Shown here: one piece after another, positions 20,505-26,596 of the stretch | Layout of the letters: the number at the start of each line of letters is the position of its first letter | How positions within the stretch are numbered: position 1 is the stretch's first letter | DNA from: Methanobacteriales archaeon HGW-Methanobacteriales-1 | GTDB taxonomy: Archaea; Methanobacteriota; Methanobacteria; Methanobacteriales; Methanobacteriaceae | Assembly (NCBI GenBank): GCA_002839705.1 | Contig: PGYO01000001.1 | Span: 310,001-374,000 of the forward strand | Length of the DNA stretch: 64,000 nt | Direction: 5' to 3' | The notes under the pieces: generated by a model | Database searches by the model: none | The model's input: only the letters and a program-made list of their open reading frames with translations | Told to the model about the DNA's origin: nothing | Made by a program: the position numbers and the translations under genes

Positions 20505-21413
20505 CTACTCATTGTATAGTGTATTTAAAATATCAATTGCAGCAGATTCCGCCTTTTTATTATCTAATTGTTGGAATTTTTCCACGGCTTTTCTAAAATT
20601 TTCAGAAACTCCCTCAATATTGCCTTGAATAAAATTCACGGTTCCTAAAATAATCATAGCACCCGCTAATCCACTTTCATCACCTAAACGTTTGAATAAT
20701 GATTTAGAATTCTCTAAACATTTTTCTGCTTCATCATATTTCTTTTGTTTTAGATTTTCATTTCCCATTATTAAAAGTAGAGCTGCTTCTCCACTTGCAT
20801 CACCAATTTCTTTGGATATTCTGAATGCTTGACTAAGATGAATAAGTGCATCTTTTTCATTGGAGTAAGTTTCATAAATAGAAGCAGATTCCACAAGTTG
20901 AACTATATCGTCCAGTTTAGGGCTCATGTTTGATAAATCTGTTTCATGATCGTCTTCTTCAGAAAGTGAACTAGACTTACTTTTCATTTTTTCCAATTCC
21001 GATAATTCAATAGCTTCTTTAATTTTTTCTACTTCTTTTATCTTTTCTTGGAGTTCTTCAACTAGTGGGGAGTTGTTTGAGGCATAAATTCGCAGGGATT
21101 CATTATAATATTCCAGAGATTTGATTATTTTTCTAGTATTTAAGTAGACATCTCCAATAGAATCCAAAACAAAAGCTTCTAATTCGTCATCTTTTAGATT
21201 TATGGACATTCGTAATGCCTTTTCAAAATATTTCAAGGAATTTTCGTATTCTTCTGATTCTAAATAAATGACGCCTACATTAATCAGCACATTAAATTCA
21301 TCATTTTGTAGCTCATCTAGGCGTTGAAGATAATACTCTAGACTACCTTCTTCTTCATCTTTCTCTTCCTGGTTCTTGAGAACATCAAATACGCCTAAAA
21401 CTTGAAGAATCAT
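20505..21413 (-). CDS. Tetratricopeptide-repeat protein
   Basis: The 302-residue protein contains TPR helix pairs in two blocks, about residues 35-125 (NVGVIYLESEEYENSLKYFEKAL and following) and 175-295 (GNENLKQKKYDEAEKCLENS, GTVNFIQGNIEGVSENFRKA). A charged Glu/Lys/Ser linker separates them. TPRs scaffold protein contacts. It is the last gene of the minus-strand Roadblock/GTPase/KaiC-like cluster, 171 bp after the last ATPase, and is a candidate partner or output adaptor of that module. The ATG follows GGAGAAAAATAG. Confidence 0.8.
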   Translation of the reverse strand: MILQVLGVFDVLKNQEEKDEEEGSLEYYLQRLDELQNDEFNVLINVGVIYLESEEYENSLKYFEKALRMSINLKDDELEAFVLDSIGDVYLNTRKIIKSLEYYNESLRIYASNNSPLVEELQEKIKEVEKIKEAIELSELEKMKSKSSSLSEEDDHETDLSNMSPKLDDIVQLVESASIYETYSNEKDALIHLSQAFRISKEIGDASGEAALLLIMGNENLKQKKYDEAEKCLENSKSLFKRLGDESGLAGAMIILGTVNFIQGNIEGVSENFRKAVEKFQQLDNKKAESAAIDILNTLYNE

Positions 21414-21584
21414 CTATTTTTCTCCATATGATTTATTTTACAGTAAATTATTATTTTTCCAAAAATTTTAAAAAATGATTATGCCTGGTTATTTGATAGT
21501 TAAATCTACTGATTTTTTAAAAGTAATACCTAATTTGATTTCACATTCAAGTTATTTCAAAGGCACGAATTAAAATTTATCGAA

Positions 21585-22277
21585 TTAAAAAATATTTATG
21601 CCTTGATCGTTTATTTCATACTCTGCTTCACTTGAATGATCTTCGGAGCTAATATATATATTTTTACCATCCATTCCTACTGCAAAATCTACTAAATCAC
21701 CCAAAATCTCTTCAGTTTGATGATCAACAGTTCCTTGTGTGTGGGTGATTAATGCAACACCATTAGCTTCTTTTATTCGTTCGATATATGATTTTAAAAC
21801 CCTTAAAACTAAATTTTCTGGATTGAAAGCAAACTGAGTTGTTAATGAATCTAAAATGGATCTAAATTTTGGTGATTTTTGAAATAAAAACCTAGTTCCA
21901 ATCCCTACTTTAACCATCATATCGGTTGGATTCTGAAGTGAAGAAATTTTATAAGTTGCTGATTCTTCCAGTTTTGCCCCAGACAACTTGGAAATAAGAT
22001 CTATAATATATAAATTTTGATTTTGAATGTGTGATTGAAGAAACCAGTTAAAATCCATAGTTCTTTGTTGTAGCTGTTTAATTCCATAGTCAGCTGTGAT
22101 GTAGAGGCATGGCTCGCTTTGCTGTAGTCCGTTGTACATGAATTGGTAGCAGAATATGGATTTTCCTACCTTAGGAGGCCCATATATGAGGGCTACTGAA
22201 TCTTCACTGATTCCTAATCCTTCTTCACCAATTAAAGCGTCGAAACCTGGAATGCCAGATTGATAGTATTTTGTCAT
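21585..22277 (-). CDS. KaiC-like RecA-fold ATPase, paralogue 1
   Basis: A single-domain KaiC/RadA-type ATPase of about 230 residues. Walker A is GPPKVGKSIF near residue 35, and a hydrophobic strand ending in Asp in FRSILDSLTT is the Walker B candidate. There is no second KaiC domain. It is closely related to the next gene upstream, with near-identical DNA around the P-loop. ATG at 22277 follows GTGGTTATA; the in-frame GTG at 22286 is an alternative. Its neighbours suggest signalling or polarity control rather than recombination or circadian timing. Confidence 0.8.
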   Translation of the reverse strand: MTKYYQSGIPGFDALIGEEGLGISEDSVALIYGPPKVGKSIFCYQFMYNGLQQSEPCLYITADYGIKQLQQRTMDFNWFLQSHIQNQNLYIIDLISKLSGAKLEESATYKISSLQNPTDMMVKVGIGTRFLFQKSPKFRSILDSLTTQFAFNPENLVLRVLKSYIERIKEANGVALITHTQGTVDHQTEEILGDLVDFAVGMDGKNIYISSEDHSSEAEYEINDQGINIF

Positions 22278-22398
22278 TATAACCACATGTTAAATCTAAA
22301 CAAATCAACTATTGTTAATAGTAGTTATGCTCATAATCAATTTTTACTATGATTATTATTTGGAGCATACTCTACATGAATGTCGTGTTTATTGGATA

Positions 22399-23118
22399 TT
22401 ATTTTTGTTTATCAGAGGTTCCAATAGAAATACCATTTTCATTCACGGCATAACTAGATTTTTTCTTTCCAACACCAACCATGGCTTCAATTGTTATTTC
22501 ATCTCCATTAAGATGAATTATGTTATCTACTATAGATTTTAACATTGCTTCGACTTTAGAATCTGCTGATCCTTCAGTATAAGTCACAATTGCAGTCCCT
22601 CCTGATTCTTTAATGCGCATTATATATGCGGTTAGGACTCTAACAATTAACATTTCGTCATTGAAAGCCATTAATGTAGTGAGTGAATCGAGGATTGATC
22701 TAAAACGTGCTGATTTTTTCGATATAAATCTGGTTCCAACTCCTAATTTAACCATAATGTCTGTGGGATTGTGTACTGAAGATGAAGCATAAGTTGGAGT
22801 GTCTATTACTTTGTTACCAGAAACGCTTGATATGGCATCAATTAGATACAAAGTTTCTTCATTGAAATATGTGCTTAATTCCCATCCAAAATCTAAAGTA
22901 TTTTGTTGTATTTGTTTTATACCATAGTCTGTGGTGATGTAGAGGCATGGTTCGCTTTCTTTTAGTCCGTTGTACATGAATTGGTAGCAGAATATGGATT
23001 TTCCTACTTTAGGGGGTCCATATACTAATGTGACTGTATTTTCTGGAATACCTCCAGTACCATTACTGGAAACCATATCGTCAAAACTTGAAATTCCTGA
23101 TGGAATACGGGGTATCAT
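22399..23118 (-). CDS. KaiC-like RecA-fold ATPase, paralogue 2
   Basis: A 239-residue paralogue of the adjacent ATPase. It starts MIPRIPSGISSFDDMV, a KaiC/RadA-style beginning, with Walker A GPPKVGKS at residues 34-41 and FRSILDSLTTLMAF as Walker B. The C-terminal strand region differs from paralogue 1 (VGVGKKKSSYAVNENGISIG). The two probably form homo- or hetero-oligomers. It lies 56 bp after the GTPase fusion gene on the same strand. Confidence 0.8.
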   Translation of the reverse strand: MIPRIPSGISSFDDMVSSNGTGGIPENTVTLVYGPPKVGKSIFCYQFMYNGLKESEPCLYITTDYGIKQIQQNTLDFGWELSTYFNEETLYLIDAISSVSGNKVIDTPTYASSSVHNPTDIMVKLGVGTRFISKKSARFRSILDSLTTLMAFNDEMLIVRVLTAYIMRIKESGGTAIVTYTEGSADSKVEAMLKSIVDNIIHLNGDEITIEAMVGVGKKKSSYAVNENGISIGTSDKQK

Positions 23119-23174
23119 TTAATCACCTATTTACTGAATATTTAATGAATTAAAATTAATTATGAGTAATTTGA

Positions 23175-24350
23175 TTAATCTCCATAAAGAATTTTTAGAA
23201 GTGCATCCAAGGCCTCTTCTATTCCTTTCTTCTCAGAGATTACGGTAGGTATTATAGGTATACTTTTATCTAATTTCATTTTTTCTCTAATTTCGTCTGG
23301 TGAAAGTGCACCATCTAAATCCTGTTTATTAGCTACAATTATTTTGGGGATTGATTCTGAGCGAGTTTTCCTAATCATTTCTTTGGCTCGTGCAAAGGTT
23401 TGCTCTGCAGTTGAATCAACTAATATAAATGCACCAACGGCTTCTTTAGATAAAACACCTAATATCAAGTCAAATCTCTCTTGACCAGGTGTTCCAAATA
23501 CATCTGCCAAAAATCCTTTATAATCCACGTGTCCAATATCCATAGCAATTGTGGTCGGAAATGCAGACATGGCTTGCCTATCAACAGAAACAGATTTTTT
23601 AGATATGGCCTTGACAAAACTGGATTTTCCGGAGTTATAGGGTCCCGTAACAAGTATTTTAGGAACATAGACCTTTACCCCACCTGGCTGAACTATAAAG
23701 AAAAGAACCATAGTATCTGCAGGGTTTGACCATGAGGAATGAGCAACCATAAATCCTTGTCCGATAATTACTCTTTCTTCTATTGTTTTTAAGTCTACAA
23801 CACAATCCATAGAATCTTTAATTGCAGTGATCACATCTTTATCATAGTCCCATTCGGTAAAAACATAAACAAGTGTTGTTTTTGTTTCTTTAGCTTTATC
23901 ATTCCATTTTTTGATTAAATCTAACGTGTTTCCATTACTCAAATAATCTATAAGTACCGAAAGATTATTTATAACTCCTATGCCTCCGGCAACATCTTCT
24001 ATAGCAGCTAAAATAACGTCTTCTACTTCAGAATAATCATTAATAGAATATTTGCTATCACTTTGGGAACCTAAAAAACTGGAACTACCATCTACAAAAA
24101 AAACTTTTTCTGCTTCTAAAAAAGATTCTAAGTCCCAACCATAGGAATTGAATTCATATTGTATTGTTTCCGGTTCTGAAACATTTGTAAAAATAAATGC
24201 AGGATCTCCTTCTTCTACCCGACCATTAAGCATTTGATAACCGAATGCTTCACAGTCTACTCCAGGATATGCACAAAACATGATTGATGCATCATCTAAA
24301 ATTCCACCACCCAGCAAGTCGTCAAGCTTGGGGATGTAGGTTTTTTTCAT
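23175..24350 (-). CDS. Degenerate KaiC-like domain fused to a small GTPase
   Basis: Residues 1-225 have the KaiC layout ([23 protein letters not shown]) but the Walker A lysine/serine signature is missing: the loop reads [11 protein letters not shown]. Residues 231-391 are a small GTPase: G1 GPYNSGKSS (236-244), a switch-I Thr in FPTT, G3 [11 protein letters not shown] (283-293), G4 NKQD (341-344) and a probable G5 near SEKKG. The G3 form FGTPGQERF matches the COG2229 GTPases that pair with Roadblock proteins in bacteria. It starts two bases after the Roadblock gene stops, so the two are coupled. The KaiC part is probably a non-catalytic oligomerisation or partner-docking domain. Confidence 0.85.
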
Positions 24351-24352
24351 GT

Positions 24353-24730
24353 TTACATCTCCTTAAGGATTTCATCGACTTGACTTGCCCGACTTTCCAT
24401 CTCAAAAAGAATTAATCCTAATTGGGCGTCTGGTTCAGTCAAAGCATTGAATATAGCTTTATCTCCTGCTGGTTTTAAAATAATAATTCCTTTTTCAGTT
24501 CTAACAGAAATTTCATTTACAGATCCAGTAGTCATTTGACCGGAAGCTGCTTCTGCCGCACCCATAATTGTAGAACATAGTGCGGAAAAAATACGAGCAT
24601 CTACATCTGGAGGAGCTCTGGAATTAATTAGCAACCCTTCTTTAGATACAATACCACATGCTTTAATCTGCCCCACTTGCATGAAAGCGGAAAGTACATC
24701 ATCCAGTTTTTCCTTTTTTGTTTTACTCAT
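24353..24730 (-). CDS. Roadblock/LC7-domain protein
   Basis: A 125-residue single-domain Roadblock/LC7 protein. Members of this family dimerise and bind small GTPases as GAPs or scaffolds (MglB with MglA; CvnB with CvnD). Recognisable features are [18 protein letters not shown], the amphipathic helix around [16 protein letters not shown], and the strand [18 protein letters not shown] probable TATA box (minus-strand TTTTATATAATT near 24777-24787) and GGTGAATGC before the ATG suggest its own promoter in addition to read-through from the pilin-like genes. The adjacent GTPase is its expected partner. Confidence 0.88.
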
Positions 24731-24908: not shown

Positions 24909-25415
24909 TTAAATCCATTTAATATCAGCTGTGGTGAAAACATATTTTGGGGAAAAAGCAGGGTTATAAAAACTATTTGTTAAATTTTCATTTTTAAAAC
25001 ATATGCTTATGCTTTTTCGGATATTAAAATTTATTCTATCTCCTAAGGAATTCTTTTCATTACTATTAAGTGGTTTAGTGCAAGAGACGAAAACCTTTAA
25101 TTGAATTTTTGTTTTTTTATAATTTATATTATATCCTTGATTTTTGGCTTCAATTTTTACAATTTTTATTGATGAAGGTGAAATTAATGTTGGTTTTTCA
25201 GTTTCATAGGTGTTAAATGTTTCTTTAGGATAAATAGCAAAGTTATTCATATTTATACCTTCTGAAGCTCCGGATCTAGCTGCTCCTAAGGCATTATCTA
25301 GTTCTTGTTCAGTATTTATAAAATTAAGAACCATTAAGGATATTATAAATGCCATCCCTACAATCAGCATATATTCTATAGCTATGTTTCCATGATTGTC
25401 CATAAATTTTGACAT
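24909..25415 (-). CDS. Pilin-like secreted protein with class III-type signal segment
   Basis: The 168-residue protein begins with a short polar head followed by NIAIEYMLIVGMAFIISLMVLNF, the layout of archaeal class III/prepilin signal peptides, where a conserved Glu a few residues into the hydrophobic helix guides assembly. The remainder is Asn/Lys-rich with beta-strand character and two Cys (VSCTKPL, ICFKNEN). It follows another pilin-like gene and precedes the Roadblock cluster on the same strand. GGAG lies six bases before the ATG. It is probably a minor pilin or adhesin. Confidence 0.65.
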   Translation of the reverse strand: MSKFMDNHGNIAIEYMLIVGMAFIISLMVLNFINTEQELDNALGAARSGASEGINMNNFAIYPKETFNTYETEKPTLISPSSIKIVKIEAKNQGYNINYKKTKIQLKVFVSCTKPLNSNEKNSLGDRINFNIRKSISICFKNENLTNSFYNPAFSPKYVFTTADIKWI

Positions 25416-25476: not shown

Positions 25477-25920
25477 TTATTCACATTCTTTTATGATAAT
25501 GGTCTTTAAATGAATGTTTGAAGGATCATTTTGAATTAAATACGATTTGCCTGGATAAAGAATCGTTTTAGCACTATTTTCTGTAATTTCATTTATAATG
25601 ACTGTAGGATATATCTCTGATTTTCCTTTCAAGCCTTCTATTTCAATATAAACTCCTGATGAATTTATGGATATAATATAATCACTTGAATTCCCTATCT
25701 TTTCCGGCATTTTAATTTTAATTTCATGTCCGGTGCCTGTTTGAACATTATTTATGGCACTGGCTATTTTTTCAGTTAGTATTCTGGCTTCTGATAGTTT
25801 TTCACTTGCTTGAGCATGATCTATTCTATCAGAAACTATGGATATTAGGCCAATTGATATAATTATGGCTATAAAAAATGATAAAATAAAATCTCCTGCT
25901 AAAGCTCCCTTTTGATCCAT
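25477..25920 (-). CDS. Short pilin-like membrane-anchored protein
   Basis: The 147-residue protein opens MDQKGALAGDFIL and then has a single hydrophobic helix (SFFIAIIISIGLISIV) followed by an extracytoplasmic beta-rich domain. The Lys-Gly-Ala site before the helix resembles a prepilin-type cleavage site. It appears leaderless: no ribosome-binding site, and a TATA box about 25 bases upstream. It is the first gene of the minus-strand cluster containing the second pilin-like gene and the Roadblock/GTPase/KaiC genes. Confidence 0.6.
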   Translation of the reverse strand: MDQKGALAGDFILSFFIAIIISIGLISIVSDRIDHAQASEKLSEARILTEKIASAINNVQTGTGHEIKIKMPEKIGNSSDYIISINSSGVYIEIEGLKGKSEIYPTVIINEITENSAKTILYPGKSYLIQNDPSNIHLKTIIIKECE

Positions 25921-26101: not shown

Positions 26102-26596
26102 ATGTACCAAATAAGAATTTATTCCGGAGGTTTATATAAATTCAATGAATTTATTGAGTTTATAGATGATTTAGGGGGCTTAGTTCTTAAAAGAGACAAA
26201 TTTCATATAAGTAGGGGCGAATATTTTTTATCAGAGGAAGTACATGCACTTACAGTTATTCCCACTCCAGAAAGTCAAAATGCTGAAATAAAGGCTAAAA
26301 ATTTGAAAGGGAGTTTAAATCTTTTGGATGTTGAAAAAGACAACAGAATAAAGATTTTATCTTGTTTAACATTGCGTGACTTATTAAGTAAGAATAGAAA
26401 TGGTCTTAATAAAGAACAGATTATTAATGAGATTCAATGTCCGTGTATTTCTGAAATTTGCAGTGAAAATGAAGAAGAATGTCTTTTAAATTGCTTGGAT
26501 GAAGTACTGGATGGTATGTTGCAAATGGAAATGATTGAAGAACATGTAATTGATCAGTTAATTGTTTATAAAATTTTTAACCATGAAAAAGATTGA
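26102..26596 (+). CDS. Hypothetical protein with C-terminal cysteine cluster
   Basis: I do not recognise this 164-residue protein. The N-terminal part (MYQIRIYSGGLYKFNEFIEF) looks alpha/beta. The C-terminal part has a dense cysteine group (CPCISEIC, then EECLLNC) that could bind a metal or iron-sulfur cluster, followed by a helix and strand reminiscent of a winged-helix end. GAGG lies just before the ATG. It is divergent from the pilin-like genes, with 181 bases between starts, so shared control is possible. Confidence 0.5.
   Translation: MYQIRIYSGGLYKFNEFIEFIDDLGGLVLKRDKFHISRGEYFLSEEVHALTVIPTPESQNAEIKAKNLKGSLNLLDVEKDNRIKILSCLTLRDLLSKNRNGLNKEQIINEIQCPCISEICSENEEECLLNCLDEVLDGMLQMEMIEEHVIDQLIVYKIFNHEKD

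Follow-up and report, generated by a model that had tools for sequence, protein, structure and literature searches.

Roadblock dimers serve the small GTPase MglA both as GTPase-activating protein (GAP) and as allosteric guanine nucleotide exchange factor (GEF) (PMC11016934), and MglA-GTP switches on type IV pili via the tetratricopeptide repeat (TPR) protein SgmX (PMC7668184). Within the MglA family, Groups 2-5 are defined by a GTPGQ motif, and Group 4, which is nearly confined to methanogens, has a normal G4 motif and lacks the G1-G2 insertion of the bacterial proteins (Wuichet and Sogaard-Andersen 2014, PMC4316618). That survey centered on small single-domain GTPases and gave archaeal MglA-type GTPases neither a function nor conserved partners; it reported no conserved neighbors for Group 4 genes. 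Separately, KaiC and Roadblock genes occur near many archaeal type IV pilus loci (Makarova et al., PMC4858521), and the term iKaiC has been introduced for an inactivated KaiC domain (PMC5847659). Here, we describe a gene block that brings these elements together. It lies at positions 20505-24730 of a 64,000-nucleotide stretch of the Methanobacteriales archaeon HGW-Methanobacteriales-1 genome (contig PGYO01000001.1, positions 310,001 to 374,000; hereafter the window).

The block probably controls surface fibers, because it joins a GTPase switch fused to a dead KaiC domain with two intact KaiC-like ATPases and two adjacent pilus-subunit genes. We read it as an archaeal MglA/MglB-type switch coupled to KaiC-like ATPases, which would adjust the assembly or activity of a type IV pilus-like fiber, and we place the probability of this reading at about 50%. 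We regard the family assignments of the block proteins as solid and the support for a pilus role as moderate; the coupling of the GTPase to KaiC rings is what we infer. The genes, with Pfam matches above the curated cutoff and lengths in amino acids (aa), are as follows.

20505-21413, minus strand: TPR protein, 302 aa, cytoplasmic-looking (TPR_12, E = 3e-21), with colinear homologues at the module loci
21585-22286, minus strand: KaiC2, a KaiC1 paralogue with intact Walker A and an alternative ATG start at 22277 (PF06745, E = 1.6e-22)
22399-23118, minus strand: KaiC1, a single-domain KaiC-like ATPase with intact Walker A (GPPKVGKS) and Walker B (SILDS) (PF06745, E = 1.3e-31)
23175-24350, minus strand: fusion protein, 391 aa, with a KaiC-like domain lacking Walker A and B (residues 1-230) and an MglA-type small GTPase (residues 231-391)
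24353-24730, minus strand: Roadblock/LC7 protein, MglB-like, 125 aa (PF03259, Robl_LC7, E = 2.8e-20)
24909-25415, minus strand: pilin-like protein B (pilB), with class III prepilin N terminus HG^NIAIEY
25477-25920, minus strand: pilin-like protein A (pilA), with prepilin-like N terminus KG^ALAGDF

All five open reading frames (ORFs) of the block are intact, with gaps of 171, 112, 56, and 2 bp; ORF and Pfam analyses thus agree with the initial annotation, which had listed the same five genes with gaps from 2 to 171 bp. That annotation stopped at five genes and overlooked the conserved pilin pair directly upstream. The conserved cluster reaches to this pair, and the linked unit is seven genes.

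The Roadblock-GTPase pair and its relatives

The GTPase domain carries the motifs GPYNSGKS (G1), PTT (G2), FGTPGQERF (G3), and NKQD (G4), with FGTPGQERF invariant in all homologues. By sequence, it fits archaeal MglA Group 4: GTPGQ is present, a Thr occupies the G2 position of the Group 1 Arg finger, G4 conforms to [NT]KxD, no G1-G2 insertion is found, and a Roadblock/MglB gene adjoins at 17/17 loci. Methanogen hosts and Roadblock coupling are further points of likeness to the euryarchaeal Group 4 proteins. In contrast to the small single-domain GTPases (<240 aa) of that group, the present protein is a 391-aa fusion, and its gene, unlike those in the Group 4 survey, has a conserved seven-gene neighborhood.

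With the MglA/MglB switch of Myxococcus and Thermus, the block shares an MglA-family GTPase and a Roadblock partner, with TPR and pilin genes nearby. It differs in the fusion of the GTPase to an inactive KaiC domain, in the Group 2-5 motifs (GTPGQ, no intrinsic Arg finger), in a Roadblock protein with Glu-Gly rather than the Asp-Gly of MglB, and in the absence of RomR, RomX, and Frz genes from the block. The TPR protein is also far shorter than SgmX (302 aa versus 14 TPRs in ∼1,060 aa). It is at most an SgmX analogue, with the TPR domain as sole common feature.

The Roadblock protein shows the Roadblock/LC7 fold expected of an MglB (PF03259), and its nearest solved sequences are Roadblock proteins, including CvnB5 (3leq). 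Bacterial plasmid relatives of the GTPase domain comprise Streptomyces CvnD and Thermus and Deinococcus GTPases encoded beside Roadblock genes, and separate queries with the Roadblock protein and the GTPase domain converge on two plasmid loci, one of Thermus brockianus (NZ_CP016313) and one of Deinococcus (NZ_CP140100). These relatives bear out the previously proposed pairing of a Roadblock protein with a COG2229/MglA-type GTPase. Among the organisms listed for plasmid matches none was archaeal, with bacterial GTPase-domain matches only; a search of viral contigs found no relatives.

The initial annotation further called the block conservon-like and suggested that KaiC-like domains stand in for the DUF742 and kinase parts. 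The Streptomyces conservon (CvnA-D) does share a Roadblock protein (CvnB) and a COG2229-type GTPase (CvnD, ∼30% identity to the block GTPase), and the gene order resembles CvnB...CvnD. However, a Pfam scan detected neither DUF742 (CvnC) nor a histidine kinase (CvnA) among the genes, which rules out membership of the block in the conservons. The GTPase differs from Group 2 in its NKQD G4 motif and its lack of a G1-G2 insert, and in alignments its G1-G2 loop is short relative to those of CvnD and the Thermus and Deinococcus GTPases. KaiC1 and KaiC2 are RecA-fold ATPases, not CvnA-type kinases, and nothing was found to support their substitution for DUF742 and the kinase. A true conservon homologue in which KaiC domains replaced CvnA and CvnC is therefore highly improbable. 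The broader idea of a polarity or signaling switch remains plausible.

A degenerate KaiC domain beside two intact KaiC-like ATPases

Pfam divides the fusion protein into a KaiC domain (residues 3-230, E = 5.2e-16) and an Arf/Ras domain (residues 231-386, E ∼ 1e-11). The P-loop of the KaiC domain is degenerate, reading AYPGVDCE where KaiC1 and KaiC2 have GPPKVGKS. By alignment and motif scan, Walker A has become A-x-PGV-x-x-EAF and Walker B IN[N/C]LS in 18/18 fusion homologues, with the Asp-Ser of Walker B replaced by Asn-Asn or Asn-Cys. The domain thus has neither the GxxxxGK[ST] Walker A nor the Walker B Asp of an active KaiC ATPase, whereas KaiC1 and KaiC2 retain their Walker motifs. Because this loss is uniform in 18 homologues of 70 to 99% identity, each a 391-aa fusion, the aligned sequences indicate that the N-terminal domain is a conserved pseudo-ATPase and not a decaying gene. 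The initial annotation was right about the KaiC-GTPase fusion and overlooked the degeneracy of its KaiC part. In a modest AlphaFold model (predicted local distance difference test [pLDDT], 58.6; 13 sequences), the fold of the domain resembles PH0284, KaiC CI, and FlaH. The block shares KaiC-like ATPases, an inactivated KaiC domain, and a pilus-linked regulatory setting with the archaeal KaiC-like hub proteins and pilus loci described previously (PMC4858521, PMC5847659). A GTPase fused to iKaiC is not mentioned in these two papers, although a paper on archaeal KaiC hubs (PMC5717392) may list the fusion.

KaiC1 and KaiC2 are single-domain proteins, which rules out the two-tandem-domain clock KaiC. 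ArlH/FlaH of the archaellum is likewise a single-domain KaiC-fold ATPase tied to a type IV-like machine, but the block falls far below the cutoff of the corresponding NCBIfam model (52.5 versus 215 bits), and an ArlH identity is ruled out. KaiC1 and KaiC2 share ∼85% DNA identity around Walker A versus ∼52% in adjoining blocks, and the high-identity stretch includes an exact run of ∼40 bases; gene conversion between the two is possible from this pattern. In three genera, an extra KaiC-like gene of the DUF7504/DUF7090 type lies between pilB and the Roadblock gene (L041:5667-6335, L044:9891-10568, and L047:9735-10424).

Conservation, distribution, and history of the block

The order pilA-pilB-Roadblock-fusion-KaiC1-KaiC2-TPR is kept at 17 loci in three Methanobacteriales families, a count that includes L042, where the contig stops short of the pilin genes, and the degenerate locus L049. 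Recurrence of one gene order on this scale places the block far beyond chance. A lack of co-conservation in related genomes had been named beforehand as one finding that would refute the proposed module, and the module passes this check. Among 152 genomes of the phylum (in the GTDB sense), the full fusion occurs in 18 and a Roadblock protein in 21, 20 of which also have an MglA-type GTPase; the fusion never occurs without a Roadblock protein. Homologues of KaiC1 and the TPR protein are present in 18/18 fusion genomes, and the spacing between the Roadblock and fusion genes is -4 to +3 bp at all loci. With few independent gain or loss events behind them, these co-occurrence counts are not independent tests.

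The Roadblock protein is the most conserved product of the block, with 81 to 91% identity across genera and families. Median identity to the other two families is 86% for the Roadblock protein, 71 to 74% for the fusion, 62 to 64% for the neighboring metS, and 80% for a neighboring glycosyltransferase-like gene. On a tree of flanking genes, a total of three changes accounts for the distribution of the block, which maps to families f2 and f3 and, within f1, to the part that branches early. The simplest history suggested by this tree is that the ancestor of the order had the block and that the main Methanobacteriaceae clade lost it.

Two loci deserve separate comment. At L049 (8888-9646, genome G010), a truncated pilB is in frame with the Roadblock gene (252 aa), KaiC2 is missing, and the TPR gene is truncated, so that the locus is a decaying copy of the block. 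For these reasons we doubt that the ORF is a real fusion, and also because a Roadblock domain attached to a pilin head would be extracellular. One metagenome-assembled genome (G078) carries two copies of the block on contigs C5 and C6 (L041 and L042), both beside the same flanking glycosyltransferase-like gene, which may reflect a strain mixture or a duplication.

The pilin pair, the proposed switch, and its alternatives

Both upstream proteins resemble archaeal pilins, with a class III prepilin N terminus, E/D at +5, and a hydrophobic stretch. A scan for the prepilin motif retrieved 30 of the 772 ORFs of the loci, and 29 of these 30 were pilA or pilB homologues. E+5 is kept in all 18 pilB homologues, and the prepilin-like motif of pilA was found in 16/17. 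The class III signal model PF04021 gave below-threshold matches to two homologues (E = 0.04 to 0.13) and none in the window. Pilin B is modeled as a 50-residue N-terminal helix followed by a head (pLDDT, 81.6); neither the head structure nor the pilin B profile had a significant match among solved structures. Outside the block locus, the window genome encodes one strong pilus assembly/secretion ATPase, and an archaeal prepilin peptidase is present. Inspection of the ATPase locus revealed no block genes, and a shared operon was dropped as an explanation. A correlation between the block and this ATPase is uninformative, as the ATPase is nearly universal (151/152 genomes). Divergent from pilA, at 26102-26596 of the window, is a gene whose product has an MCR_C/methanogenesis-marker-7-like domain at its N terminus (E = 3e-8); most relatives keep this gene there.

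In the proposed switch, a Roadblock homodimer would act as GAP/GEF for the fusion GTPase, as MglB does in the established families, and the dead KaiC domain would dock the GTPase on KaiC1/KaiC2 rings. Nucleotide state would then decide whether the rings engage the single pilus assembly ATPase and its platform or the pilins. The TPR protein is a possible SgmX-like effector by analogy, responding to the GTP state as SgmX does for MglA in Myxococcus. The target would be a fiber of the adjacent pilins, built by the single strong pilus ATPase after processing by the prepilin peptidase. A bolder version, which we regard as doubtful, has the pseudo-KaiC domain allow a Ras-like GTPase to insert into or cap rings of the two active KaiC paralogues, such that GTP state would be converted into the assembly of rings, which would in turn drive or position pili. 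In that case, the block would give archaea their own version of the MglA-SgmX pilus switch, one already present in the ancestor of the Methanobacteriales.

Several results weigh against a KaiC-coupled pilus switch. All 18 Roadblock homologues have Lys-Glu-Gly where MglB has Asp-Gly, and the AlphaFold model of the fusion is too weak for an interface to be read from it. The gap between pilB and the Roadblock gene is frequently 112 to 187 bp, so that the pilin genes may be transcribed apart from the Roadblock gene. Genomes without the block still have the pilin pair and the pilus ATPase; pili thus do not depend on the block, which may have the pilins simply as long-standing neighbors. Where the same site was inspected in 13 genomes lacking the fusion, most kept the pilin pair and had none of the five block genes. 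This distribution would suit a KaiC-centered signaling hub in which the GTPase switch governs a nonpilus target (gene expression, division, or envelope) and the pilin pair is an old syntenic neighbor. KaiC-type genes have indeed been proposed as general archaeal signaling hubs, with an inactivated KaiC-like domain described (PMC5847659), and the second Roadblock gene of the genome adjoins genes for SepF, a PATAN-like protein, and MinD. We nevertheless consider such a hub somewhat unlikely: wherever both are visible, in three families, the block always comes right after the pilin pair, and the extra KaiC genes of L041, L044, and L047 likewise lie between pilB and the Roadblock gene.

Other genomes bear on the coupling itself. 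The outgroup G150 has KaiC1 and TPR homologues and lacks the Roadblock and fusion genes, and in genome G049 (L084) pilA, pilB, KaiC1, and KaiC2 lie together with the Roadblock-fusion pair missing as a unit, at a site where the contig ends. Both states also count against the proposed switch and indicate that the two halves of the block can work apart. They would favor two independent units in one operon, a Roadblock-fusion switch and a KaiC1-KaiC2-TPR ATPase pathway with no physical coupling. Against this arrangement, KaiC1 and TPR homologues accompany the fusion in all 18 genomes, and a KaiC-like domain is joined to the GTPase within the fusion itself; we judge it improbable.

In this block, an archaeal MglA-type GTPase is found with a Roadblock partner that has hardly changed, with a dead KaiC domain as part of the same protein, and in a pilus setting, and the methanogens concerned have cultivable relatives. 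If the coupling is real, two large uncharacterized archaeal signaling families, Roadblock/GTPase and KaiC, would meet in a single circuit open to testing, and the control of pili by GTPases, known from bacteria, would extend to archaea.

These genomes hold further Roadblock and GTPase genes. The second Roadblock gene is divergently oriented and lies beside genes for DUF1611, SepF-like, PATAN/DUF4388-like, and MinD proteins (L056:11860-15927, G000:C1:20000-38000; also L087, L089, and L090). This cluster is conserved in genomes as far apart as outgroup G150 and the one that contains the window (SepF was not called in L085), with 72 to 95% identity for the Roadblock protein, and is possibly a division-site or polarity module. 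A third Roadblock domain stands at the start of a protein of 428 aa that is encoded beside sortase-like and MscS-like genes (L056:4075-5361) and has homologues of 321 to 510 aa. Finally, a stand-alone MglA-type GTPase (ATPGQERF) is encoded between aroA-like and nuclease-like genes (L057:7401-7886, G000:C2:117400-117882) and is found in all fusion-bearing genomes as well as in G049 and G100.

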